Source: Chloroflexota bacterium
GTDB lineage: Bacteria; Chloroflexota; Anaerolineae; B4-G1; DUEL01
DNA length: 64,000 nucleotides
Direction: 5' to 3'
Assembly (NCBI GenBank): GCA_014874475.1
Contig: JADBJJ010000026.1
Location: 224,020 to 288,019 of the forward strand
Part shown: one piece after another, positions 2,518-37,805 of the stretch
Position numbering within the stretch: position 1 is the stretch's first letter
How the letters are laid out: each line of letters opens with the position of its first letter
The notes under the pieces: generated by a model
What the model saw: the letters and a program-made list of their open reading frames with translations, nothing else
Databases searched by the model: none
What the model was told of the DNA's origin: nothing
Program-made: the position numbers and the translations under genes

Positions 2518-3697
2518 CAACGACTCCCAGTTCCTTCCCGACCTTCGCGAACTTTTCCAGACCGTAGTCCAGATCATCTCTGCTCAGCATAGCGGAGACC
2601 ATGACCCGGATGCGAGCCTGGCCCTTGGGGACGGTGGGGTAGCCGATGGCCATCGCGAAGACGCCTTCTTCAAAGAGGCGGCGGCTGAACTGCTGGGCCA
2701 GCGGGGCCTCTCCCAGCATCACTGGCGTGATGGGGGTCACACTGCGACCCACGTCAAAGCCCAACCGCTTCATCTCCCCCTTGAAGTAGCGGGTGTTTTC
2801 CCAGAGACGGTCCACCAGTTCGGTGGACTCGGAGAGGATGTCCACCGCCGCTATGCACGCAGCGGTATCGGTGGCGGTAACGGCGTTAGAGAACAGGAAG
2901 GGGCGGGCCCGCTGACGCAGATAGTCTATGACCACCTTCTTGCCGGAGATAATCCCGCCGACGACGCCGAAGGCTTTGGAGAAGGTGCCGATCTCAATGT
3001 CAAACTTCCCGTGGAGGCCAAAGTGGTCCACAATGCCGCGACCGCCGTGGCCCAGGACACCCTCACCGTGGGCATCGTCCACCATAGTGATGAGCCCGTA
3101 GCGCTCCGCGACCTCGTAGATTTTGTCCAGCGGGGCTATGTCGCCATCCATAGAGAAGACGCCATCGGTGATGACCATGCCGCGCCGGAAGTTGGAGAGA
3201 TTCTCCTTGACCTTAGCCTCCAGGTCGTCGGGATCGCAGTGCTCATAGACGATGATTTTGGCCCCGCTGAGGCGACATCCATCAATGATAGAGGCGTGAT
3301 TCAGCCGGTCGGAGAAGATGACATCCTCCCGGCCCACCAGGGGCGGGATGGCGGCCTGATTGGCGCAGAAGCCGGACTGGACGTAGAGGGCGTCTTCCAC
3401 ATGCTTGAACTCGGCGACCTTCCGCTCCAGTTCCACGTGGATGCTGAGAGTCCCAGCGATGGAGCGGACCGCCGTTGGCCCAACGCCCCAGTGGTCCAGC
3501 GCCTCGTGAGCCGCTTGGACCAGTCGGGGGTGGGTCGCCAGGCCCAGGTAGTTGTTGGTGCAGAGGTTGAGGACCTTTTTGCCGTCCACAATCATCCGTG
3601 GGCCGGGGGCCGAACCGATAGTACGCAGATGGATGAAGAGGCCAGAATCTTGCAGCGCGGCCATCTCCTCGCGGATGAAGTCAAATTTGTCGCCCAT
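2513..3697 (-). CDS. kbl: Glycine C-acetyltransferase (2-amino-3-ketobutyrate CoA ligase)
   Basis: A 394-residue PLP enzyme of the alpha-oxoamine synthase family. It cleaves 2-amino-3-oxobutyrate with CoA to glycine and acetyl-CoA in threonine degradation, or may serve as a related synthase. Visible family signatures are N-N-Y-L-G-L near residue 50, the D-D-A-H-G cofactor-binding aspartate, and G-T-F-S-K-A-F-G with the Schiff-base lysine. The start is the ATG at 3697, preceded by AGGAG at 8 bases; an upstream in-frame extension is not family-like. Length matches Kbl. No threonine dehydrogenase is adjacent, so 8-amino-7-oxononanoate synthase-like activity cannot be excluded, but the N terminus favours Kbl. 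The consensus promoter at 3886-3914 drives it. Confidence 0.9.
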
Positions 3698-3754
3698 AGT
3701 CTTGCTCCTTAGTGGAACAGCGAATTTTTTCCACTTGTACGATTCGTACGGTTG

Positions 3755-3809
3755 CACCGCAAAGGACGAGAAAGTTGTGTGGATTTCTTTTGCGCCCTTT
3801 GTGGTCTTT
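3755..3809. repeat. Dispersed intergenic repeat (CCACAAAGGACACGAAGG family), copy a
   Basis: An imperfect inverted repeat with ACCGCAAAGGACG facing CGCCCTTTGTGGT, in the kbl leader. The same CCRCAAAGGACRC-type text recurs in several other gaps of this window. Confidence 0.55.
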
Positions 3810-3885
3810 AGTAAGGGACTCCCGCACCCGAGCGTCGCCGGGTAATCGTACAGGTAGAACTTTTCCCGTCGGGTCAGCGGAGGTC

Positions 3886-3914
3886 ATTATACAGAGGCAG
3901 AGTGATTCTGTCAA
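3886..3914 (-). promoter_or_regulatory. Sigma-70-type promoter of the kbl operon
   Basis: On the minus strand, TTGACA (3914-3909) and TATAAT (3891-3886) are separated by 17 bases: a perfect consensus. It leaves a leader of about 180 bases before kbl, containing dispersed repeat copy a. Confidence 0.8.
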
Positions 3915-4076
3915 TTTGCTACGGTGTAAAGAAAGGCAGGGGAACGCTCATCGGGCGTATTGCCCCCGGGCCCATTCCTCATCCCTTCCTTGCCCTTTCC
4001 TTCCTGCTTGCCTGTCGACGGTCGGGAGAGGAGAACATCCTCCCTCAAACTCACACTTCCGGGCCCGTCTCGCCTA

Positions 4077-4105
4077 TTGTGAAATTGCAAAATTAGGGGT
4101 ATAAT
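4077..4105 (+). promoter_or_regulatory. Promoter of the REC-CpaE gene
   Basis: TTGTGA and TATAAT (4100-4105) lie 17 bases apart, about 40 bases upstream of the REC-CpaE start. The 3698-4146 gap holds this promoter, the divergent kbl promoter and one repeat copy; I see no gene in it. Confidence 0.7.
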
Positions 4106-4146
4106 TATAACAACGAGCGTCGCCGGGGGTAAATAGGAGGAGGGAC

Positions 4147-5271
4147 ATGGCCCGTATCCTGGTCATAGACGATAATGCCGACTTGCTGCAGATGATCCGG
4201 ATGTTGCTGGAAGAACGGGGCGGGCACGAAGTGATTCTGAGCGCCGATGGTGAGGATGGTCTGGCCAAAGCCCGCGCAAACCCGCCGGACCTGGCCATCG
4301 TGGATGTGATGATGCCGGGGATGAACGGGTACGAGGTCTGTCGCCAGTTACGACAAAACCCTGCTACCGCCCAGATGCCGATCATCATCCTCACCGCGCG
4401 CGGCCAGCCAGTGGACCGGGAGACTGCACTGGCAGCGGGTGCCGACGAATACATCCCTAAGCCGATCACGATGGCGGAACTTCTGGAGCGGGTCAATCGC
4501 CTGCTAACCAGGAAAGTCGTCCACCGCGCAGCGGGAGGGACGGTCGCCGTGTTGAGTCTGCGCGGAGGGGTGGGGGTGACCACGTTGGCCGTCAATCTGG
4601 CTGTCATTCTGGGCCGCTCATCACCGAATCAGGTATGCCTGGTGGATCTCTCTCCCTCTTCCGGGCACGGTGCGCTTCAGATGGGACTCCGGCCCGACCC
4701 CAACTGGTCTGCTCTGGCCCTCCTGACCTCCGGACCCGGCTCTGCGACTATCCGCAATTATCTTCTGACCCATCCCTCTGGCGTCCATCTGCTCGCTTCG
4801 CCCTTCGTCCCTGTCGTGGGAGGAGGGTTATCCCCGGAGATAGTGCTGGCGGTCCTGGCAGCCCTGAGGGAGAATTTCCTCTATGTGGTGGTGGACCTTC
4901 CTGCGATTCTCACCGAGGGAGTGATGGCGGTGCTGGGAAAAGCGGACACCATCCTTCTGGTCACTGCTGCCGACCCATCCGCGCTGCAGACCACGGTGGG
5001 AACCCTTCAGGTCTTGAAGCCCTATGCTTCAAAGGTCCGGCTGATCCTGAACCGGACGGGGCCGGAGCCGGCGCCCCCTGTGGAAACCCTCCAGCGGGTT
5101 CTTAAGCATCCCATCTCCGGGGTTATTCCCTTTGACCCCTCCCAGCTGCGGGCGCTGGCTCAGGGCAAACCCCTGGCTTTGAGTGCCCCTGACTCTCCTC
5201 TGGCGCAGGCGGTGGCTCATCTGGTGGCCGAACTGGAGAAGATGCCGGTGCCGAAGGGCACAACCGGATGA
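4147..5271 (+). CDS. Response-regulator receiver fused to CpaE/TadZ-like ATPase
   Basis: A 374-residue protein with an N-terminal REC domain (about 1-122; phospho-acceptor D53, T in L-T-A-R, K-P switch near 105) and a C-terminal ParA/MinD-like P-loop domain. The loop reads R-G-G-V-G-V-T-T (139-146), lacking the usual Walker lysine, as is common in TadZ/CpaE proteins that localise type IV pilus (Tad) assembly. Such proteins often carry REC-like domains. No other tad/cpa gene is adjacent, so its partners lie elsewhere or it has another localisation role. The ribosome site GGAGGAGGG and the promoter at 4077-4105 fix the start. Confidence 0.8.
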   Translation: MARILVIDDNADLLQMIRMLLEERGGHEVILSADGEDGLAKARANPPDLAIVDVMMPGMNGYEVCRQLRQNPATAQMPIIILTARGQPVDRETALAAGADEYIPKPITMAELLERVNRLLTRKVVHRAAGGTVAVLSLRGGVGVTTLAVNLAVILGRSSPNQVCLVDLSPSSGHGALQMGLRPDPNWSALALLTSGPGSATIRNYLLTHPSGVHLLASPFVPVVGGGLSPEIVLAVLAALRENFLYVVVDLPAILTEGVMAVLGKADTILLVTAADPSALQTTVGTLQVLKPYASKVRLILNRTGPEPAPPVETLQRVLKHPISGVIPFDPSQLRALAQGKPLALSAPDSPLAQAVAHLVAELEKMPVPKGTTG

Positions 5272-6648: not shown

Positions 6649-7848
6649 CTACCGTTCCAGCGTCATCGGCATAACCACGTAGGTAAAGTCGTCCCCGCCG
6701 ACAGGTCGGAGAACACCCGGGCTAGAGGGGGAGATGATGTCCATCATCACTTGCGGCGAGTTGACCACCCCCAGCGCGTCCAGAATAAACTTCACGTTGA
6801 AGGCAATCTCCACCGCCGCCCCTTCTATCGCCGCGTCCATTTCGGTCACATCGCTGCCCGTCTCGGCGGAGGTGGCGGAGACGACCAGCCGCCCCGGCTC
6901 CAGGTCGGAGGCGGGATGGATGTGGAAGAGCAGGGTGTTGGTATTCTCGCGGGCGAAAATATGGGCCGTCTGGCAGGCCTTCAGCAGTTCCGCTGTCCCG
7001 ACAATCAGCCGGGTGTTCCGGTCGCGCGGGATCAGTTGCTGGTAATCGGGGAAGGTGCCAGGGATCAATTGGGAGACCAGCACAACCTCCATCGGGACCG
7101 GGGCATCGGGCAGGGTCTGAGCCTGGAACACGATGCGGTTCTGGTCAGGGGTAAAGGTGATGTGGACCGGTGGGCGTTCTTCGCGGCCCTTCGCCATTTC
7201 GCCGCAGATGCGGGCCCATTCGGTCATCGTACGGGCCGGGACGATGACGCTGAAGGGGCGCGCGACCTCGCTCTCAGGCAACGGGACCCGCCGGACCGCC
7301 AGCCGGTACCCGTCGGCGGCGGCTAAGGTCAGGGTGGGGCCTGTGGCAGTCGCTTCCCACCGGAGGAGGACGCCGGTCAGAATGGGGCGGGCCTCATCGG
7401 TCGCCGCCGCGAAGGCAACCTGGTTGATGGCGGTCCGCAATGTCTCCGGGTCCACGGAGATACCGTCTGCTGTACCCTCTTCAGGGGTCGGAATGGGCGG
7501 AAAGTCCACCGCGTCCAGGCCTTTGATGTTGGCCTCACTCCGCCCACAGCGGGCGTTGAGGGTCATCGTGCGCACTTCCTGGCGCAAGTCCACCCGGTCC
7601 GGCGGGAAGGCATTGACCAAGTCAACGATCGTCCGCGCCGGCACGGCAATAGCCCCCTCTTCCTCTACCCGTCCACCGATCCAGCAGTGGATACCCATCT
7701 CCAGATTTGTAGCGGAGAGGCGAAGCCGCCCCTTATCGGTGGTGAAGAGAATGTGGCTGAGGATGGGGAGAGCAGAGCGGGCGGATACCGCCCGTCCGGC
7801 AACGCTCAGACCACGAGATAGATTCTCCTGCAGGCAAGAAACCTTCAT
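6649..7848 (-). CDS. dnaN: DNA polymerase III beta subunit (sliding clamp)
   Basis: A 399-residue beta clamp, the ring-shaped processivity factor of the replicative polymerase. Three repeated clamp folds are recognisable. They start at M-K-V-S-C-L-Q-E-N-L, near A-I-N-Q-V-A-F-A-A-A-T-D-E-A-R-P-I-L-T-G-V, and near the T-R-L-I-V-G-T-A-E-L-L segment. The C terminus V-V-M-P-M-T-L is the canonical family end. The start follows GAGGAG. dnaA is not adjacent, so this is not the classic dnaA-dnaN origin layout; the gene may be a relocated or second clamp gene. Confidence 0.95.
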   Translation of the reverse strand: MKVSCLQENLSRGLSVAGRAVSARSALPILSHILFTTDKGRLRLSATNLEMGIHCWIGGRVEEEGAIAVPARTIVDLVNAFPPDRVDLRQEVRTMTLNARCGRSEANIKGLDAVDFPPIPTPEEGTADGISVDPETLRTAINQVAFAAATDEARPILTGVLLRWEATATGPTLTLAAADGYRLAVRRVPLPESEVARPFSVIVPARTMTEWARICGEMAKGREERPPVHITFTPDQNRIVFQAQTLPDAPVPMEVVLVSQLIPGTFPDYQQLIPRDRNTRLIVGTAELLKACQTAHIFARENTNTLLFHIHPASDLEPGRLVVSATSAETGSDVTEMDAAIEGAAVEIAFNVKFILDALGVVNSPQVMMDIISPSSPGVLRPVGGDDFTYVVMPMTLER

Positions 7849-7889
7849 CCGCGCTCCTCCTGAGGGAATGGACGATTCATCCGGCTGGA

Positions 7890-7918
7890 AGTATACCGTA
7901 TTGTCAGGTAACCGTCAA
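7890..7918 (-). promoter_or_regulatory. Promoter of dnaN
   Basis: Minus-strand TTGACG (7918-7913) and TATACT (7895-7890) with a 17-base spacer, about 40 bases before the dnaN start. Confidence 0.75.
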
Positions 7919-7936
7919 CTCCAGAAGGTAAAGGGA

Positions 7937-9085
7937 TCAGCGAACGAGCAAAGCCCCGGTGGGCCGACCGGGCAGTTGTTTGTGCCGGATCAGCCACACC
8001 CCCAGACCGACTAGCCAGAGGGCCGTCGCTTCCAACTGGAAAGGCAGTGTTCCCAGTGTCCCGCGAGTCCTCAAACTATAACCCGCTACGCCGGCAACCA
8101 GTACAGTGAGGGCAAGGAGGAGAAGGCCCAACATTCGTCCTTCCCGTCCCTTTAGGCTCAGCATACCAGCCAGCCCAATGGTTCCCAGGACCAGCCCCAC
8201 CCACTTGGGCCAGAGCCCGGGGTCACAGGCAATAGCCAGGAGGGGGTAGGGTTGACGGGAGATTTCCAGGTGGACTCCATCTACTATCTGGGAGAACTGG
8301 TCCTCCTCCACAATCGCTTCCTGGACCCGCTCCCCTCCAGGGGCCCGGAAGATTTCCACCCGAATCGGGCTCTGCGCAGAGAGGTTGCCCTGGACCCCCA
8401 ATCGGACCACCAGGCCGCTCTCCGGTATGGCGAGCGAGCGCTCCGGAGATGAAGGGGTCAGATACAGAACCAGTTCCGTTTGCGCCGGCTCGCGGGCGGT
8501 TTGCTGGAGTTTCAGGGGACGGTTGGCATCATCAGTGGCCCGAACGGTCAACGAAGGCCCGAACCCCATCAGGTATTGCTTCAGTGTCCTCCCTTCGTAG
8601 TTTGGAGACAAAGCGATCTCTGGGCCGACCAGGCCCTCTTCCCGCCATCCCCATCGGTGACCGATGAGCAGTCCGGCCAGCAGAACCAGCACTCCCAGAC
8701 AGGCCAGAAGGAGGGATGCGATAGCCCACCACTGGCCCCGGTTATCTTTATCGCGGAGGTGAGAACGGAGCGCTTCTATCAGTTCTGCAGTCCATAGAAG
8801 CAACAGGAACGCCAGCAGGGAAAGGAGTACTGGGGTGACAGGAGATCTGGCCAGCGAGAAGAGTCCCAGTTGGTACATGGTGCTGGTCCATAGGCCAAAG
8901 CGGGTCTGAACCAGCCATCGGTCCGTCGTCGCCGGGCCAGGGGGGAACTGGGGAATCCATGCCATAAGCAGGAGATAGATTGCCAACGCGAAGAGGCATA
9001 TCGCCAGCGGGATATTTCCCGTGGCCGTGCGCCAGGCCAGGCGCCAGGGATCCGGTCGGTGTGGAGGCGATACCGTCATCGTCAT
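7937..9085 (-). CDS. ResB-like cytochrome c biogenesis protein
   Basis: A 382-residue membrane protein of the ResB type, which with CcsA/ResC delivers heme for c-type cytochrome assembly (system II). Three hydrophobic segments lie in the first 150 residues, then a large extracytoplasmic domain of beta-rich text (about 170-300) and two or three more membrane spans at the C terminus, as in ResB/Ccs1. The start is the ATG at 9085 (another at 9079); the frame stays open into the tRNA-Thr region, which is not coding. No ccsA is adjacent. Assignment rests on topology and recognisable ResB-like segments, so it is moderately firm. Confidence 0.7.
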   Translation of the reverse strand: MTMTVSPPHRPDPWRLAWRTATGNIPLAICLFALAIYLLLMAWIPQFPPGPATTDRWLVQTRFGLWTSTMYQLGLFSLARSPVTPVLLSLLAFLLLLWTAELIEALRSHLRDKDNRGQWWAIASLLLACLGVLVLLAGLLIGHRWGWREEGLVGPEIALSPNYEGRTLKQYLMGFGPSLTVRATDDANRPLKLQQTAREPAQTELVLYLTPSSPERSLAIPESGLVVRLGVQGNLSAQSPIRVEIFRAPGGERVQEAIVEEDQFSQIVDGVHLEISRQPYPLLAIACDPGLWPKWVGLVLGTIGLAGMLSLKGREGRMLGLLLLALTVLVAGVAGYSLRTRGTLGTLPFQLEATALWLVGLGVWLIRHKQLPGRPTGALLVR

Positions 9086-9425: not shown

Positions 9426-10436
9426 TCAGCAAATTCGCGGGAGCAACTCCCCCAGCGGCATGTCCACCACCCGTCGCCCGCCGATGCCGGTACGGGCCAG
9501 AACCAGGCCGGGATGCTCCGCCGTCGCCTGGCCGATGCGGGCGGCATCCCGACCCAGCGGGTGGGCTCGCAGCGCGTCCAGGGCCGCCTCCGCCTCTTCT
9601 GGCGGGACAAACGCGATCAGTTTTCCCTCATTGGCAACCGTCAAAGGGTCAAATCCCAGCATCTCGCAGGCGGCCATGACGGCCGGACGGATGGGGATGG
9701 CGGCCTCATCCAGTTCCACCCCCACTCCGGCGGCGACGGCCAGTTCGTTCAGCGCCGCCGCTACTCCGCCTCGCGTCGGGTCCCGCAGACAGTGGGTATG
9801 GGGAGCCGCCGTCAGTAGTGCCTCCACCAGGCCGTTCAGCGGCGCACTATCCGAAACCAGATCCGTTTCAAAACCCAACCCTTCCCGCTCGCTGAGCACG
9901 GCGATCCCGTGGTCGCCAACGGTGCCGCTGATCAGGATGACGTCGCCGGGGCGGATGCGATGGGGAGCCACATCCACCCCATCGGGCACCACCCCGACGC
10001 CGGTAGTGTTGATGTATATCCCATCCCCATGGCCTCGTTCCACCACCTTCGTATCCCCTGCGACCACGGCGACCCCCGCCCGACGTGCGGCGTCGGCCAG
10101 AGACTGAACCACCCGCTGGAGGTCCTCTATCGGCAGTCCCTCTTCCAGAATGAAGGCGGCGGTGAGCCAGAGAGGATGGGCGCCGCGCATGGCCAGGTCA
10201 TTCACTGTGCCGTGGACGGCCAGGGAACCGATGTCTCCGCCCGGAAAGAAGAGCGGTCGCACAACAAAGGAATCGGTGGAAATGGCGATTCGGCCATTCC
10301 CGGCAAGGGCCAGGACAGTGGAATCGGCCAATTGGCGCAGGAGAGGATTATCCAGATGGCGGAGGAAGACCTCCTGGATGAGGTCCGCCATCATACGTCC
10401 CCCCGCGCCGTGGCTCATACGAATGGTCGTTTCCAT
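9426..10436 (-). CDS. hypE: Hydrogenase maturation protein HypE (carbamoyl dehydratase)
   Basis: A 336-residue HypE of the AIR-synthase fold. It dehydrates the carbamoyl group transferred by HypF onto its C-terminal cysteine to a thiocyanate, the source of the CN ligands of the [NiFe] centre. The hallmark C terminus L-P-R-I-C, ending in the acceptor cysteine, is intact, as are the N-terminal M-S-H-G-A-G-G, the ATP site A-V-V-A-G-D-T-K-V-V and D-P-T-R-G-G. The ATG at 10436 follows GAGGGG; a GTG at 10442 is an alternative. No other hyp gene is adjacent; the hydrogenase it would serve lies at 33-38 kb. Confidence 0.95.
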   Translation of the reverse strand: METTIRMSHGAGGRMMADLIQEVFLRHLDNPLLRQLADSTVLALAGNGRIAISTDSFVVRPLFFPGGDIGSLAVHGTVNDLAMRGAHPLWLTAAFILEEGLPIEDLQRVVQSLADAARRAGVAVVAGDTKVVERGHGDGIYINTTGVGVVPDGVDVAPHRIRPGDVILISGTVGDHGIAVLSEREGLGFETDLVSDSAPLNGLVEALLTAAPHTHCLRDPTRGGVAAALNELAVAAGVGVELDEAAIPIRPAVMAACEMLGFDPLTVANEGKLIAFVPPEEAEAALDALRAHPLGRDAARIGQATAEHPGLVLARTGIGGRRVVDMPLGELLPRIC

Positions 10437-10476
10437 AAACACCCCTCAAGACGGAACAGGGCAGATTTTTGAGAGG

Positions 10477-32758: not shown

Positions 32759-32874
32759 CCCACAAAGGACACAAGGGTACACGAAGGACGCAAAAGAAAT
32801 CGGGAGTGGAGCGCAGGCCGCCAGGCTTATGGATCCAGGCTGTCGGCCTGTGCTATCCGGTCCTTTGTGGTTTA
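32759..32874. repeat. Dispersed intergenic repeat, copy f
   Basis: CCCACAAAGGACACAAGGG (from 32759) faces GGTCCTTTGTGGTTTA (to 32874), flanking about 60 bases in the gap downstream of the hydrogenase operon. Confidence 0.6.
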
Positions 32875-33591
32875 GTGCTGGGCGGCCTCCCGTTTCTTTG
32901 CCTCCCAGATTTCCATCGCCCGCTTCGGGCCGTAGTACCACTTGGCGTGGTGCTCAGCAGCATAATCCGCCGAGGTCACCCCGAAGCGCATGCTGACCAG
33001 CCCGGCCCACATCAGCGGGTGCGCCACTGCCAGGTAGAGATGCACCAGGAACATACAAACCGAGACGATCATCGCCAGGTCGTGGAACACCACCAGCCAG
33101 CGGTAGAGTTCTGGCGGGATCACTCCTTTGCCGAACCACATCGGCAGACCGGTGAGACCGAAAACGAACCAGGCAATGATCATCACTAGCCCGTTCATCT
33201 TCTCCCCGGCGTTGAAGCGGCCCTGGGGGGGCATCGCCTCGTGCCGGCCCAGCAGGTAGTAAGCGGGGGCACCCTTCAGCCAGCCCAGGTCGTCCTTGTT
33301 GGGCAGAAACTCCCGGATGTTCAGCAGCAGCCGGCGGGGTTGGATGATGAAGTAGAGGATGGGCAGCAGACCAAAGATGACCGCCGCAATCCGGTGAACC
33401 AGTCGGATCAGCAGGCCTGCCTCCCCCTGGGCCAGCGGCTGCAGGAAGGGGAAGTATAGGATCATCCCGGTGACCGCCAGGGGGACGAAGGTAGCAGTGT
33501 GGAGCCAGTGGCCCAACCGCTCCATAAAGGTGTACTTGGGAATCCACTGGATGGTGATGGCTTCTGCTCTACCTTTGAGTTGGACGGTCAT
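32872..33591 (-). CDS. Hydrogenase cytochrome b subunit (FdnI-like)
   Basis: A 239-residue diheme cytochrome b of the formate dehydrogenase gamma/hydrogenase type, passing electrons from the iron-sulfur subunit to quinone. Four membrane spans carry heme-ligand histidines: R-L-G-H-W-L-H-T near residue 29, L-V-H-R-I near residue 65, H-D-L-A-M near residue 170 and V-H-L-Y-L-A-V-A-H-P near residue 183. The G-E-K-M-N motif before span 3 is characteristic of FdnI. The ATG overlaps the stop of the ferredoxin gene as ATGA, so the two are translationally coupled. It is the last gene of the hydrogenase operon. Confidence 0.9.
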   Translation of the reverse strand: MTVQLKGRAEAITIQWIPKYTFMERLGHWLHTATFVPLAVTGMILYFPFLQPLAQGEAGLLIRLVHRIAAVIFGLLPILYFIIQPRRLLLNIREFLPNKDDLGWLKGAPAYYLLGRHEAMPPQGRFNAGEKMNGLVMIIAWFVFGLTGLPMWFGKGVIPPELYRWLVVFHDLAMIVSVCMFLVHLYLAVAHPLMWAGLVSMRFGVTSADYAAEHHAKWYYGPKRAMEIWEAKKREAAQH

Positions 33592-34490
33592 CTCACTTCC
33601 TCCATACGAATCTTACGGCGGACGAAGAGGAAGGCGCCCAGAATGCCCACCAGGGCCGCGCCGAAAGCCACGTTGCCCAGCGGCTGAATCACCCGCTGCC
33701 AAGCCCGGGCGAAGGCCGGCGTCTTGGGGACAGATGGCAGGCCATACTGTTCCGGCTCGTCCAGCAGGATGCTCAGCCGATGCAAACCTCCCGCCTCGTT
33801 TTCGCCGTAGATGCGGGCGTTCATCCCCCGGGACTGCAACTCGGTTACCCGCGCCCGGGCCTTTTCCAGCAGTTCCCCTCGCTTGCCCCAGGTCAGCGCG
33901 CCCACCGGGCAGACCTCCGCGCAGGAGGGCCCGCCAATCCCCGCCCAGAGGCGGTCCTGGCAGAGGGTGCACTTGGCCGACTTCGCCTCGCCCGTCAGTA
34001 AATTGGCAACCTGCAGATGCGGGACCCCATAGGGGCAGAACTGGGTGCAGTAACCGCAGCCATTGCATTTATCCCGGTCCAGCGAGACGAACCCCAGCGG
34101 GTCATGAGAGAGCGCGCCAGTCGGGCAGACCTCCACACAGGCCGCGTCGGCGCAGTGCATACACTGGTAGTTGAAGAAGTGCCAGCCGACCTCTGTCCGC
34201 CGGAGTTTAATGATGTTCCAGGTGATGGCGGAGAGGCCCCAAGGGGATTCGTAGATGCGCAGCGGGTCGGTGCTCTCGTTAGGCAGTCGGTTCCAGCGCT
34301 TGCAAGCCATCTGACAGGCCTTGCAGCCGACACATTTGACCGGATCGTAGAGAATTGCGACTTCGTCGGGAGAGGCCGCACGGACCGCGGTCGCAGGACG
34401 GGCGCCGGCCAGCGAGATGCCCAGCCCCAGCGCGGAGAGGCCCAGAAACTCCCGACGGCTCATCTTGATTTCGGACTTTTTGCCGTTCAT
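33588..34490 (-). CDS. Tat-exported 4Fe-4S ferredoxin subunit (HybA/FdnH-like)
   Basis: A 300-residue periplasmic electron-transfer subunit. The twin-arginine signal S-R-R-E-F-L-G is near residue 11. Cys clusters typical of four [4Fe-4S] sites follow: C-V-G-C-K-A-C-Q-M-A-C, C-M-H-C-x-x-x-x-C-x-x-x-C-P, C-N-G-C-G-Y-C-x-x-x-C-P and C-T-L-C-x-D-R. One C-terminal membrane span (about 272-290) anchors it. It links the hydrogenase small subunit to the cytochrome b encoded next. GGAGGGG precedes the ATG. Confidence 0.92.
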   Translation of the reverse strand: MNGKKSEIKMSRREFLGLSALGLGISLAGARPATAVRAASPDEVAILYDPVKCVGCKACQMACKRWNRLPNESTDPLRIYESPWGLSAITWNIIKLRRTEVGWHFFNYQCMHCADAACVEVCPTGALSHDPLGFVSLDRDKCNGCGYCTQFCPYGVPHLQVANLLTGEAKSAKCTLCQDRLWAGIGGPSCAEVCPVGALTWGKRGELLEKARARVTELQSRGMNARIYGENEAGGLHRLSILLDEPEQYGLPSVPKTPAFARAWQRVIQPLGNVAFGAALVGILGAFLFVRRKIRMEEVR

Positions 34491-34493
34491 AGT

Positions 34494-35003
34494 TCACCCC
34501 TCCTGGTGGGGCCCATCGCCTTCTGGGGTTTCCCCTAGAGGGCCAACGCCCCACCGCTGTAATTCCGCCAGAACGTTCCGGATGAGGTTTTCCACTTGAG
34601 CGGCGACGATCGGCGATAACTCCAGCCCCACCTCCAGGGAAGCGGGCTGAACGCCCCAGAGGACTACCTCGGCGGGAGAGCGACCCAGCAGGCGAGCCGC
34701 TGCCAGCAAGTCGCTCAGACCGGCCTGATGAGGGGAATACTTCAGATTCAGTACGGCGGGAACCTGTTCCCCTTCCAGCCGGGCCACTGTCCCCGGAGGG
34801 GCATCCATCTGCACGGCGTCTACGACCAGCAGTCGGCCCGCGTTCTCCACGTAGGGCAGCAGGTCCAGACTCAGGGTCCCGCCGTCCAGGATTTCCACCT
34901 CCCGCGGAAACCGGTACCGTTCCCGCAGGAGGCGGATCACGTGGACACCCACGCCCTCGTCGCTCAGGAGGATATTCCCCACTCCCAGGACCAGTGTTTT
35001 CAC
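34494..35003 (-). CDS. Hydrogenase maturation endopeptidase (HyaD/HybD family)
   Basis: A 169-residue nickel-dependent protease that trims the C-terminal extension of the large subunit after the [NiFe] centre is assembled. The N terminus T-L-V-L-G-V-G-N and the three nickel-sensing residues of HybD are in register: E16, D62 and H92. The GTG start at 35003 overlaps the large-subunit TGA as GTGA. The substrate's extension after D-P-C-M-A-C-A-V-H is 20 residues, as expected for this protease type. Confidence 0.9.
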   Translation of the reverse strand: MKTLVLGVGNILLSDEGVGVHVIRLLRERYRFPREVEILDGGTLSLDLLPYVENAGRLLVVDAVQMDAPPGTVARLEGEQVPAVLNLKYSPHQAGLSDLLAAARLLGRSPAEVVLWGVQPASLEVGLELSPIVAAQVENLIRNVLAELQRWGVGPLGETPEGDGPHQEG

Positions 35004-36718
35004 AGACAGGTCCCGTCGTTCAAGCGGATTCGGGTCACCTCCCGACCGTGCGCGTCCATAACGTGGACGGCACAGGCCATACACGGATCAAAGGAGTGGA
35101 TGGTGCGCAGAATTTCTATGGGCCGCTCCGGATCGGCGACGGGGGTACCAACCAGCGAGGCCTCATAGGCTCCCGGCCGGCCCTTCGCGTCCCGCGGCGA
35201 CGCGTTCCAAGTGGAGGGAACGACGGGCTGGTAATTAGCGATTTTGCCATCCACGATGCGCACCCAGTGGGACAGGGCTCCGCGTGGAGCCTCGTGCGGT
35301 CCCCATCCCTGGGCTTCCTTTGGCCAGGTCGCCGGGTCCCACTTTTCCCCGTTATGAACAGCGAGGTCCCCCTTGGCCATATTTTCCGCCAGTTCATCCA
35401 CCCAGGCGTTCAGTTGCTCGGCGACGACCAGGGTCTCAATCCCGCGCGCGGCGGTGCGGCCCAGGGTGGAGAAGAGAGCCTCCGGCCCAACTCCCAGCCC
35501 CTTCAGGACCGCGTCCACCACTTCCTTCACCCGCTTGTGGCCGGAGGCATAGGCCACCAGCATCCGGGCCAGTGGCCCCACTTCCATCGGCTTGTCGTCG
35601 TAGCGGGGAGCCTTGAGCCATGAGTACTTCCCATCGGTCTCCAGATACTCGTAGGGCGGTTGGGGGCCGGTATAGTTGGGAATGGTCTCCCCATCCCATG
35701 GGTGCTTGGCGACCGTATCCCCTTCGGAGTACTGGTACCACGAGCGGGCCACATACTCGGCGATCTTTTTGTGGTCCACCGGGTAGAGGGTGTTCAGATC
35801 CCGATTGAGGATGACACCGGAGGGCAGGAAGAAATTTCCGGCCCGGTCGGGGAACTCGCCATAGACCAGGAAGTTGCCCAACCCTTCGCCCAGGTTGGCC
35901 CATTCGTCCTTGTAGAACGAGGCGATGGCCAGGAGGTCCGGGATATAGACCTGCTGGACGAAGGTCAAGGCCTTCGTGAAGAGTTTCTTCAGGAAGGCCA
36001 GTTTATCGGCATTGAGGGCGGTTTCGCTATCGGGGTCCACCGGGATGGACATCCCGCCGACCAGATAGGTCTGAGGATGGGGGTTCTTACCGCCCATAAT
36101 GGCATGGGCCCGGATGACATCCCGCTGCCAGTCCAGGGCTTCCAGGTAGTGGGCCACTGCCATCAGATTGGCCTCAGGCGGCAACCGGTAGGCGGGATGA
36201 CCCCAGTAACCATTGGCGAAAATTCCCAACTGACCGCTGCGGACGAAAGCATCCAGTTTTTCTTTGAGGGAGCGGAAATAGTCGGGGCTGGAGTTCGGCC
36301 AGTCGGAGATGGACTGGGCTAATTGGGCAGTCTTGTTGGGGTCGGCCTTCAGCGCGCTGGTGATGTCCACCCAGTCCAGCGCGTGGAGGTGATAGAAGTG
36401 AATCACATGGTCCTGGACGTACTGAATTCCAGTGATCAGATTCCGAAGGATCCGAGCATTATCCGGGATTTGAATCCCCAGAGCGTCTTCTACGCCTCGC
36501 ACGGAGGCGACGGCATGCACCGTCGTTCAAACCCCTCATATCCGTTGGGCCATCAGCCAGGCTTCCCGGGGGTCGCGGCCTTTCAGGATGATTTCCAGCC
36601 CCCGGAACATCGTGCTGGAGGACCAGGCTTGGGCAACACGGCCGTCTTCAACTTGGACCTCAATCCGCAGATGGCCCTCTATGCGGGTGACGGGATCAAT
36701 AACGATTTTCTGGACCAT
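35000..36718 (-). CDS. [NiFe] hydrogenase large subunit with two in-frame TGA codons (candidate selenocysteines U61, U64)
   Basis: A 572-codon catalytic subunit of a membrane-bound group-1-like hydrogenase. ATG 36718 follows AAGGAGGGATAAG, one base after the small-subunit stop. The N terminus carries [10 protein letters not shown]. The L1 motif, normally R-I-C-G-V-C-T-x-x-H, reads R-I-TGA-G-V-TGA-T-T-V-H: codons 61 (36538-36536) and 64 (36529-36527) are both TGA exactly at the two metal-binding cysteines. The frame is otherwise open to 35000. L2 keeps standard cysteines (D-P-C546-M-A-C549-A-V-H), then a cleavable 20-residue tail. TGA is a normal stop in neighbouring genes (kbl, mltG). Selenocysteine insertion is the best explanation; two point mutations or sequence errors at exactly these positions are the alternative. 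Confidence 0.85.
36481..36538 (-). promoter_or_regulatory. Candidate bacterial SECIS elements following the two TGA codons
   Basis: Hairpin 1: CGACGG/CCGTCG (36525-36520 with 36513-36508), 6-bp stem, loop TGCATG, loop starting 16 bases after the first TGA. Hairpin 2: GAG-g-CGT/ACG-CTC (36498-36481), loop AGAAG, loop starting 35 bases after the second TGA. Both have a G among the first two loop bases and fall in the 16-37-base window described for bacterial SECIS. The hairpin identity is inference; the complementarity is seen directly. Confidence 0.5.
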
Positions 36719-36719
36719 C

Positions 36720-37805
36720 TTATCCCTCCTTCTTCGCAATCTGGCTCACTGCTACCGCGCCCGCCACACCGGCGGCGACGCCAACCGCTGCGCCGATCAC
36801 ACCCGCAGTGATGGGGGACATCTCCTCCACGGGCTCCACTTCGGGATAGGTGGTGGGCGGCGTCAGGTTGTGGATGGGGACGGGCTCATAGGCGTGCATT
36901 TCCCAGAAGTTGGGAGCCGCGCAAGCGATGCAGCCATGGCCGGCGGCCACGGGCCAACTGACCCCCTCGTTCCAGCGGATGGACGGACAGTTCTGGAACG
37001 CCACCGGCCCCTTGCAGCCCATCTTGTAGAGGCACCAACCATTGCGGTGGCCCTCGTCCCCCCAGGCCTCCACAAACTCCCCGGCGTCAAAGTGGCCGCG
37101 CCGTTCGCAGTTATCATGGATGCGGCGACCGTGGGCGAAGAGAGGCCGGCCCAGGTCGTCCAGCGCAGGGAATTCTTTGAAGGTCAGGTAGTGGACCACC
37201 GTAGCAGTCAGGTTATCCACATTCATCGGACAGCCAGGGAGGTTGACAATGGGGACGCCGGAGATGATATCCTTCACCCCTTTGGCGCCGGTGGGATTGG
37301 GAGGGGTCGCTGGCCAGCCGCCGTAGAAGGCGCAGGCCCCCACGGTGATGATGGCCGCCGTGTTGGCTGCCACCTCCTGGAGAATCTCTAAAGAGGAACG
37401 TCCGGCGATGCAGCAGTACACACCGTTGTCGGCAGTGGAAATAGAGCCTTCCACAATGGTGATGTAGCCCCCTTCCTTGATGGTGTCATGGAGAGATTTC
37501 TCGGCGAGGTGGCCGGAGGGAGCCATAATGGTTTCGTGATAGTTTAGAGAGAGGATGTCCAGAACCAGTTCGGCGACGGTGGGGCGGTTGGCCCGCAGGA
37601 GGGATTCCGTGCATCCGGCGCAGTCCTGGAACTCCAGCCAGACGACCGGAGGCCGCCGGACGCTCTCCAGCGCGCGGGCAATTTTGGCCGCCCGGTCCAC
37701 TGGGAGAGCCAGGACGCCAGCCATAATAGTGCAGAACTTCAGGAACTCACGACGGGTAACACCTCTAATCGCCAGTTCTTCAGCGAGGGTCAGAGAGCGA
37801 TCCAT
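36720..37805 (-). CDS. [NiFe] hydrogenase small subunit (HybO/HyaA-like)
   Basis: A 361-residue iron-sulfur subunit exported with the large subunit. The Tat signal T-R-R-E-F-L-K-F-C is near residue 17. The cluster ligands are seen in order: D-C-A-G-C-T-E-S (proximal), [13 protein letters not shown], the distal H-x-x-C...C-E-R-R-G-H-F, K-M-G-C-K-G-P, the medial N-C-P...W and [11 protein letters not shown]-terminal membrane span (about 333-353) anchors the complex. GGAGGT precedes the ATG. No extra proximal-cluster cysteines typical of O2-tolerant 4Fe-3S types are obvious beyond the standard set. Confidence 0.93.

Follow-up and report, generated by a model that had tools for sequence, protein, structure and literature searches.

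Two in-frame UGA codons at the L1 nickel ligands of a group 1-type [NiFe] hydrogenase: a predicted double-selenocysteine large subunit with relatives in Chloroflexota and Nitrospirota

We analyzed a 64,000-nucleotide stretch of DNA from a Chloroflexota bacterium (hereafter, the window) and found that a gene on its minus strand (36718-35000) encodes the large subunit of a group 1-type [NiFe] hydrogenase, and that both UGA codons of its L1 motif are very probably read as selenocysteine (Sec, U). A preliminary description of this DNA had put forward a candidate U-x-x-U double-Sec enzyme, and this proposal was supported by the Sec genes of the genome, the alternation of Cys and TGA among homologues, and a covarying hairpin in the TGA forms. 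The gene apparently represents a widespread, undescribed class of [NiFe] hydrogenases with two Sec residues in L1, both of which are probably served by one SECIS element. Taken as a whole, it is likely that this undescribed class of Nitrospirota and Chloroflexota carries a bridging selenolate, depends on a single SECIS, and arose through forms with Cys at the first and Sec at the second position (CxxU), more than once. The presence of selenium in the protein is deduced from sequence.

The large-subunit frame begins with ATG at 36718, contains 572 codons, and ends at its own stop, the TGA at 35002-35000. Apart from this terminal codon, the frame has only two stops, namely TGA codon 61 (36538-36536, minus strand) and TGA codon 64 (36529-36527, minus strand), which the reading frame and the alignment to solved relatives placed at the first and second L1 positions, respectively. 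The L1 context is R-I-U-G-V-U-T-T-V-H, and thus the TGAs lie exactly at both Cys of R-I-C-G-V-C. The C-terminal motif is intact (D-P-C-M-A-C-A-V-H), with both Cys of the translated L2 motif C546-M-A-C549 retained (35083-35072, minus strand). The preliminary description had stated both points, an intact frame but for two TGAs replacing exactly the L1 Cys and a C-terminal motif that keeps its two Cys, and the frame, the alignment, and the finding of C546 and C549 confirmed them. Residues 1-552 aligned with residues 1-552 of 6ehq, and the ligand positions 61, 64, 546, and 549 correspond to the numbering of E. coli Hyd-2 (HybC). Structural work on such enzymes has established that Ni and Fe are bridged by the second Cys of L1 and the second Cys of L2; accordingly, we take the codon 61 site to be a terminal Ni ligand of relatives and the codon 64 site to be their Ni-Fe bridging ligand. 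Positions 61, 64, 546, and 549 are the Ni-coordinating Cys residues that were exchanged in E. coli Hyd-2, as described in the accessible part of that report (PMC11212049).

The predicted protein showed full-length matches to group 1 large-subunit models, with 646 bits for PRK10170 and 645 bits for PRK10467 (Hyd-1/Hyd-2 models), both scores being under the narrow equivalog cut-offs. Whole-length homology with L1 and L2 in place is what is expected of a group 1 [NiFe] large subunit, as is the company of a small subunit, a maturation protease, and a membrane partner. All of these were found on the minus strand: the small subunit with a Tat signal (36720..37805; profile match and sequence) lies upstream, followed downstream of the large subunit by a HycI-type hydrogenase maturation protease (34494..35084; PF01750), a 4Fe-4S ferredoxin-like protein (33588..34490; profile match), and a cytochrome b-type membrane subunit, Ni_hydr_CYTB (32872..33591; PF01292). 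Group 1 enzymes also have four Cys ligands, of which 546 and 549 are Cys here and 61 and 64 are TGA. Because the two L1 ligand codons are TGA, the window protein is a variant and not a plain group 1 member. The proximal-cluster region of the small subunit reads D-C-A-G-C-T-E-S, with a further C-C pair later in the sequence; presumably, this region is without the extra Cys typical there of O2-tolerant 6-Cys enzymes. That selenium might replace the O2 protection given by the extra small-subunit Cys was raised as a putative possibility.

TGA serves as a stop in five of nine genes checked, namely those for the large subunit, the protease, and the 4Fe-4S protein and two more. Since the large subunit itself ends in TGA, UGA is not reassigned, and UGAs 61 and 64 must be distinguished by their context; the earlier judgement that a changed genetic code was unlikely therefore stands. 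Furthermore, in all 21 pairs of seven genus members, dN/dS was 0.03-0.22 ahead of the UGA pair (codons 1-60) and 0.03-0.11 past it (codons 65-244). These low values on either side of the UGA pair indicate that both parts behave as one translated protein.

Recurrence of the UGA pair was then analyzed by running the pattern R-I-U-G-V-U-x-x-V-H on one genome each of 84,980 GTDB species. The pattern yielded 118 stretches, 117 of which are in-frame hydrogenases with UxxU in L1 and 49-91% identity to the window protein; the remaining one (L138) was rejected as a chance match that is not a hydrogenase. Because the pattern fixes R-I and V-H, this count is a lower bound. In 93 of the 117 loci, the frame continues uninterrupted past the UGA pair and L2 until a stop, and in 22 more until the edge of the stretch examined; of the remaining two, the frame of L025 stops prematurely and that of L061 is N-masked. 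As labelled, 77 loci belong to Nitrospirota, 29 to Chloroflexota, and one each to Pseudomonadota and Myxococcota, with nine lacking a phylum; the labels identify them as MAGs or bins, and two loci (L039 and L049) come from one assembly. Several protein entries of 497-506 residues begin just past L1 (P0010, P0012, P0016, P0018, P0019, and P0023, as well as P0026, P0033, P0050, P0054, and P0116), apparently because gene callers took the UGAs for stops.

Within the window's genus, six of seven genomes, the window's included, carry UxxU, and the seventh (G018) carries CxxC, with TGC/TGT at the L1 codons of a protein that is 88% identical. Comparison of close homologues had been recommended earlier, and it showed that Cys and TGA alternate exactly at codons 61 and 64, even within one genus; in-frame UGAs aligned with the Cys of homologues are as expected of a selenoprotein. 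The sharing of the TGA pair by six of seven genus genomes and 117 public loci also upholds the earlier argument that two such codons are beyond chance. The recurrence in over a hundred genomes, like the CxxU form described below, had not been anticipated there. Four further UxxU genomes were found in the same family or order, among the 48 genomes of the window's order. Across 400 genomes of the phylum, 59 matched at E up to 1e-100; 30 loci read from this search comprised 28 CxxC and two UxxU (the window and G012), and one of three further matches read at L1 was CxxU (G058, second copy). In one Nitrospirota class, 124 of 200 genomes matched, and the 30 best matches were all UxxU.

The machinery for Sec insertion was examined in the window's genome (3.02 Mb in 32 contigs, 97.7% complete). 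Matches to selA (581 bits), selB (310 bits, or 344 with a neighboring match in frame), and selD (328 bits) were all above the curated cut-offs, which in 14 control genomes were exceeded by selA in one, selB in two, and selD in two. The tRNA-Sec scored 72 bits with Rfam (gathering score 47), and ARAGORN gave the anticodon UCA; a second match to the tRNA-Sec model (47.4 bits) proved to be tRNA-Ser. Thus selA, selB, selC, and selD, the set expected of a selenoprotein-producing genome and the genes that the preliminary description had named for searching, are all present. The selD gene itself has an in-frame TGA and is a second candidate selenoprotein. A selD with an in-frame TGA (S-C-A-G-U-A-G-K) was similarly observed at L018:1243-2445, beside frames that by eye resemble a transporter and a cysteine desulfurase. 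Within the window, an AIR-synthase-family protein (9426-10442) gave a weak match in the selD search (37 bits) and is not selD by score. In the other genomes, selA was above the cut-off in 47 of the 50 UxxU genomes searched (50 of the 117 loci); the other three comprised one with a selA fragment and two without selA, with completeness figures not given. Genomes of the window's phylum without UxxU, taken from the 400-genome comparison, had selA in 42 of 57 cases (Fisher p 0.008, phylogeny ignored), or in 41 of 56 after removal of G058, later found to have a CxxU copy (p 0.005). Since selA is also frequent without UxxU, the association is modest. A smaller search matched selA in 14 of 17 genomes, 13 of them above the cut-off, including the Cys-form G018.

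Next, we analyzed the RNA downstream of the UGA pair. The bacterial SECIS model, as given in the part of the review covered here, requires a G as one of the loop's first two bases, a minimum free energy of -7.5 kcal/mol or lower, and a spacing of 16-37 nt (PMC13188914). A predicted SECIS hairpin, CGCCUC-CGUGC-GAGGCG, lies at 36509-36493 (minus strand; -9.6 kcal/mol). Its stem has 6 bp, and its loop CGUGC begins 23 nt past UGA 64 and 32 nt past UGA 61, in keeping with the model for both codons. Both spacings being inside 16-37 nt, one element can in principle serve both UGAs. Rfam, applied to the whole window at gathering thresholds, reported two tRNAs and nothing more.

Comparison of sequences indicated that this hairpin is conserved. 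In 115 distinct UGA forms (L090, L104, and L105, too short on one side, and L138 were dropped), several third positions in codons 9-13, counted from the first UGA, hardly vary, with GTG at codon 12 in 114 of 115, and the codons further downstream do vary. The 6-bp stem with its 5-base loop occurs in two registers: the first comprises CAGCUC/GAGCUG, CUGCUC/GAGCAG, CGCCUC/GAGGCG, and CGCUUC/GAAGCG, and the second is the bulged ACCGC(C)UC/GAGCGGU. With G-U pairs allowed, the stem formed in 101 of 115 UGA forms and in one of 31 Cys relatives, and 200 synonymous randomizations gave it in a mean of 10.9 and a maximum of 20 of 115. With Watson-Crick pairs only, one of three stems formed in 99/118 UxxU, 16/20 CxxU, and 0/46 CxxC sequences. 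The third of these stems, GCACUG-GCUU-CAGUGC, belongs to the paralogue clade that holds most CxxU forms, and its loop is 18 nt past the UGA. Allowing G-U pairs, 13 of 118 UxxU sequences formed none of the three strict stems, and eight of 46 CxxC sequences formed one, among them L143, a Cys relative in the window's genus. Furthermore, among variable column pairs over 160 nt, the top corrected covariation linked base 1 of codon 10 with base 3 of codon 14, a pair of the hairpin in which the synonymous third base of an Ala codon tracks its partner.

Generic bacterial SECIS criteria were passed by 116 of 118 UxxU sequences and also by 39 of 46 CxxC sequences; taken by themselves they say little, because so many Cys forms meet them somewhere. 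Longer parts of the window gained only a little stability over shuffled sequences (z -1.3 and -1.8), the hairpin was outside the lowest-energy structure of a 76-nt fold, and RNAalifold on the mixed set, which combines the two registers, returned a 3-bp core only. A candidate second SECIS dedicated to UGA 61, with arms cgacgg/ccgtcg and its loop 16 nt past that codon, was found in the window and rejected as not conserved, its middle pairs holding in 26-29 of 115 sequences. Two codons around the UGAs are nearly fixed in UxxU sequences. ATA precedes the first UGA (codon 60, 36541-36539 in the window) in 112/118 UxxU, 0/20 CxxU, and 5/46 CxxC sequences, and ACG stands two codons past the second (codon 66, 36523-36521) in 114/118, 3/20, and 15/46, respectively. 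For the fixed third base of the ACG codon, the fifth from the first UGA, no base partner was found. These codons may contribute to the decoding of UGA 61.

The states of L1 were then compared across 184 distinct L1 sequences, a set that leaves out those without 160 clean bases and comprises 118 UxxU, 46 CxxC, and 20 CxxU, the UxxU share being inflated by the UxxU pattern scan; UxxC was not found in L1 among these 184. In the CxxU forms, which came from a protein-based search, L1 reads R-F-C-G-V-U or R-I/V-C-G-V-U, its second position alone being TGA. Including L269, found after the 184-sequence count, they number 21 (L229-L240, L242-L245, L255, L256, L257, L259, and L269). Of the 20 CxxU, sixteen group in a distinct paralogue clade, which also contains two UxxU and shows about 50% identity to the window protein; the other four fall close to UxxU sequences of the main clade. 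A quick tree was restricted to rows with both motifs and at least 500 residues, and its 124 rows covered 58 of 102 usable UxxU, all 20 CxxU, and all 46 CxxC. In this tree, from a short search with long-branch warnings and no inferred root, 12 changes are needed among the three L1 states and eight between Sec and Cys forms, and the starred branches force at least seven changes for UxxU. It would appear from the CxxU relatives that Sec was acquired earlier at the second L1 position than at the first, and the Cys form of G018, inside a UxxU genus, is most simply a return to Cys. The L235 contig carries a CxxU (3086-4789) and a UxxU (7016-8731) large subunit approximately 2 kb apart, and in three genomes one Cys-form and one TGA-form large subunit occur together (L251/L252, L254/L255, and L258/L259). 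Such Cys/TGA pairs possibly serve Se-poor and Se-rich conditions.

Other explanations for the two UGAs were weighed against these results. That they are true stops in a decayed or truncated gene, whose product of approximately 500 residues would begin downstream, is extremely unlikely. Entries of that length do exist, among them P0010, P0012, and P0016, and the frame of L025 ends early, but this is one locus in 117, and nearly all others remain open through L2 or to the edge of the stretch. A protein from a downstream start would be without both L1 ligands, and a decaying gene would not retain the same two codons across two phyla; the dN/dS of codons 1-60, low in every genus pair, together with this recurrence led us to reject the pseudogene reading. 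The chance that the TGA pair stems from faulty sequencing or assembly, or that UGA has changed its meaning throughout the genome, is negligible, and nothing was found in favor of either: the pair is common to many separate assemblies, which disposes of an error, and the large subunit itself and four of the eight other genes checked end in TGA, so that a recoded genome was rejected on the gene's own stop.

Alternatively, the UGAs may be read and yet yield something other than two Sec residues. Read-through as Cys, Trp, or a mixture, by a sulphur-loaded tRNA-Sec or by near-cognate decoding, would agree with the Cys at both sites of the Cys-form homologues; it is very unlikely given the dedicated tRNA-Sec, SelA, and SelB, the selD with its own in-frame TGA, and Cys forms that use TGC/TGT and never form the Watson-Crick hairpin (0/46). 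Somewhat less remote, but still unlikely, is that one UGA, most plausibly 64, is efficiently decoded as Sec, leaving the double-Sec enzyme a minor or Se-supply-regulated product. The natural CxxU form and the closer spacing of the hairpin to codon 64 (23 nt, against 32 nt for codon 61) favor such a scheme, although both distances fit the 16-37 nt range and UxxU outnumbers CxxU by 118 to 20, in a set biased by the UxxU pattern scan. Moreover, the fixed ATA and ACG are peculiar to UxxU, suggesting that decoding of the first UGA is under selection. Sec at both L1 positions is thus the reading that we prefer.

On this preferred reading of two Sec residues, Sec-tRNA(UCA) delivered by SelB would decode both UGAs under the direction of one hairpin. 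SelB probably acts from this hairpin, with UGA 61 decoded first and UGA 64 next, and the UGA at codon 573 would still end the protein. The usual Hyp proteins would insert Fe(CN)2CO and Ni, with the adjoining HycI-type protease completing maturation. In the predicted active site, two selenolates and two thiolates would coordinate the nickel. By homology, Sec61 would be a terminal Ni ligand and Sec64 the Ni-Fe bridge, and Cys546 stays Cys. Because the Cys546 relay is thus unchanged, selenium more likely affects the electronic structure and the recovery from oxidation than the relay. The likeliest, still putative, benefit is that oxidized ligands are easily re-reduced, or that the catalytic bias is shifted, in a membrane-bound H2-oxidizing complex. 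We take C241 of E. coli HycE to be its first L1 Cys. This ligand is required for HypC binding, according to the available portion of that study (PMC12134894), and its counterpart in the window protein would, by analogy, be Sec61.

If true, these proposals would mean that a metal site with two Se ligands, one being a bridging selenolate, exists in nature, mainly in Nitrospirota and Chloroflexota. The role of selenium at the bridging and second terminal positions, addressed until now with engineered single variants, would become directly testable, and the genes would offer a natural system for studying the decoding of two close UGAs, nine bases apart, by one bacterial SECIS. In addition, some gene callers cut UxxU genes past L1, and the enzymes therefore appear as fragments of approximately 500 residues in protein collections.

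Among solved structures, the best match was 3myr, presumably the Allochromatium vinosum hydrogenase (755 bits, residues 2-552), which has the same L1/L2 layout but, unlike the window protein, Cys at all four ligands. The Sec-bearing large subunits or fragments FrhA and VhuA/VhuU have UxxC, presumably at the C-terminal position. They belong to the F420/MV families and carry one Sec, whereas the window protein is of group 1, has UxxU in L1 and CxxC in L2, and scored 142 bits with frhA (cut-off 392.5). In the part of its table considered here, a 2026 review assigns UxxC to FrhA as well as VhuA/VhuU and enters the delta subunit as CxxU (PMC13188914). In the accessible part of a 2022 table, UxxC is likewise the motif of FrhA and of the MV-reducing alpha subunit. 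The same portion of the review includes UxxU selenoproteins with two UGAs in a C-x-x-C motif, as here, in protein families other than hydrogenase (Prx-like, NF041115 metal-binding, and FmdB-like), and no hydrogenase was seen among its UxxU entries (PMC13188914). Likewise, we found no natural L1 Sec or two-Sec hydrogenase large subunit in the accessible parts of the open-literature papers listed by our searches.

The [NiFeSe] hydrogenases, such as Desulfovibrio vulgaris HysA and that of Desulfomicrobium baculatum, are, like the window protein, bacterial [NiFe]-type enzymes with a UGA/Sec at a Ni ligand, and the solved members 5jsk and 1cc1 match it by sequence. Their single Sec stands at the position of the first L2 Cys, which is kept as Cys in the window protein (D-P-C-M-A-C), in contrast to the two UGAs of the latter, both in L1. 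The window protein was under the cut-offs of the HysA (409 of 780 bits) and NiFeSe_hydrog (558 of 600 bits) models, as were all four CxxU/UxxU relatives scanned. As far as the consulted sections of the Hyd-2 report extend, the Sec of [NiFeSe] enzymes occupies the site of Hyd-2 Cys546, which is a proton relay, and this bears out the earlier statement that known [NiFeSe] enzymes carry Sec in the C-terminal motif (PMC11212049). In E. coli Hyd-1, Sec at this natural position raised O2 tolerance, and H2 oxidation dropped wherever Sec was placed, according to the part of the review available (PMC9961374). The same sections on E. coli Hyd-2, whose ligands are numbered as in the window protein, describe single Sec exchanges at all four ligands that left the enzyme active at lower levels, with H2-oxidizing activity remaining, although reduced, for Sec at 61 or at 64 (PMC11212049). 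The activity of these two variants indicates that selenium at either position is compatible with catalysis. The Hyd-2 variants are engineered singles made at TAG, whereas the window gene would be a natural double at TGA, accompanied by a conserved hairpin.
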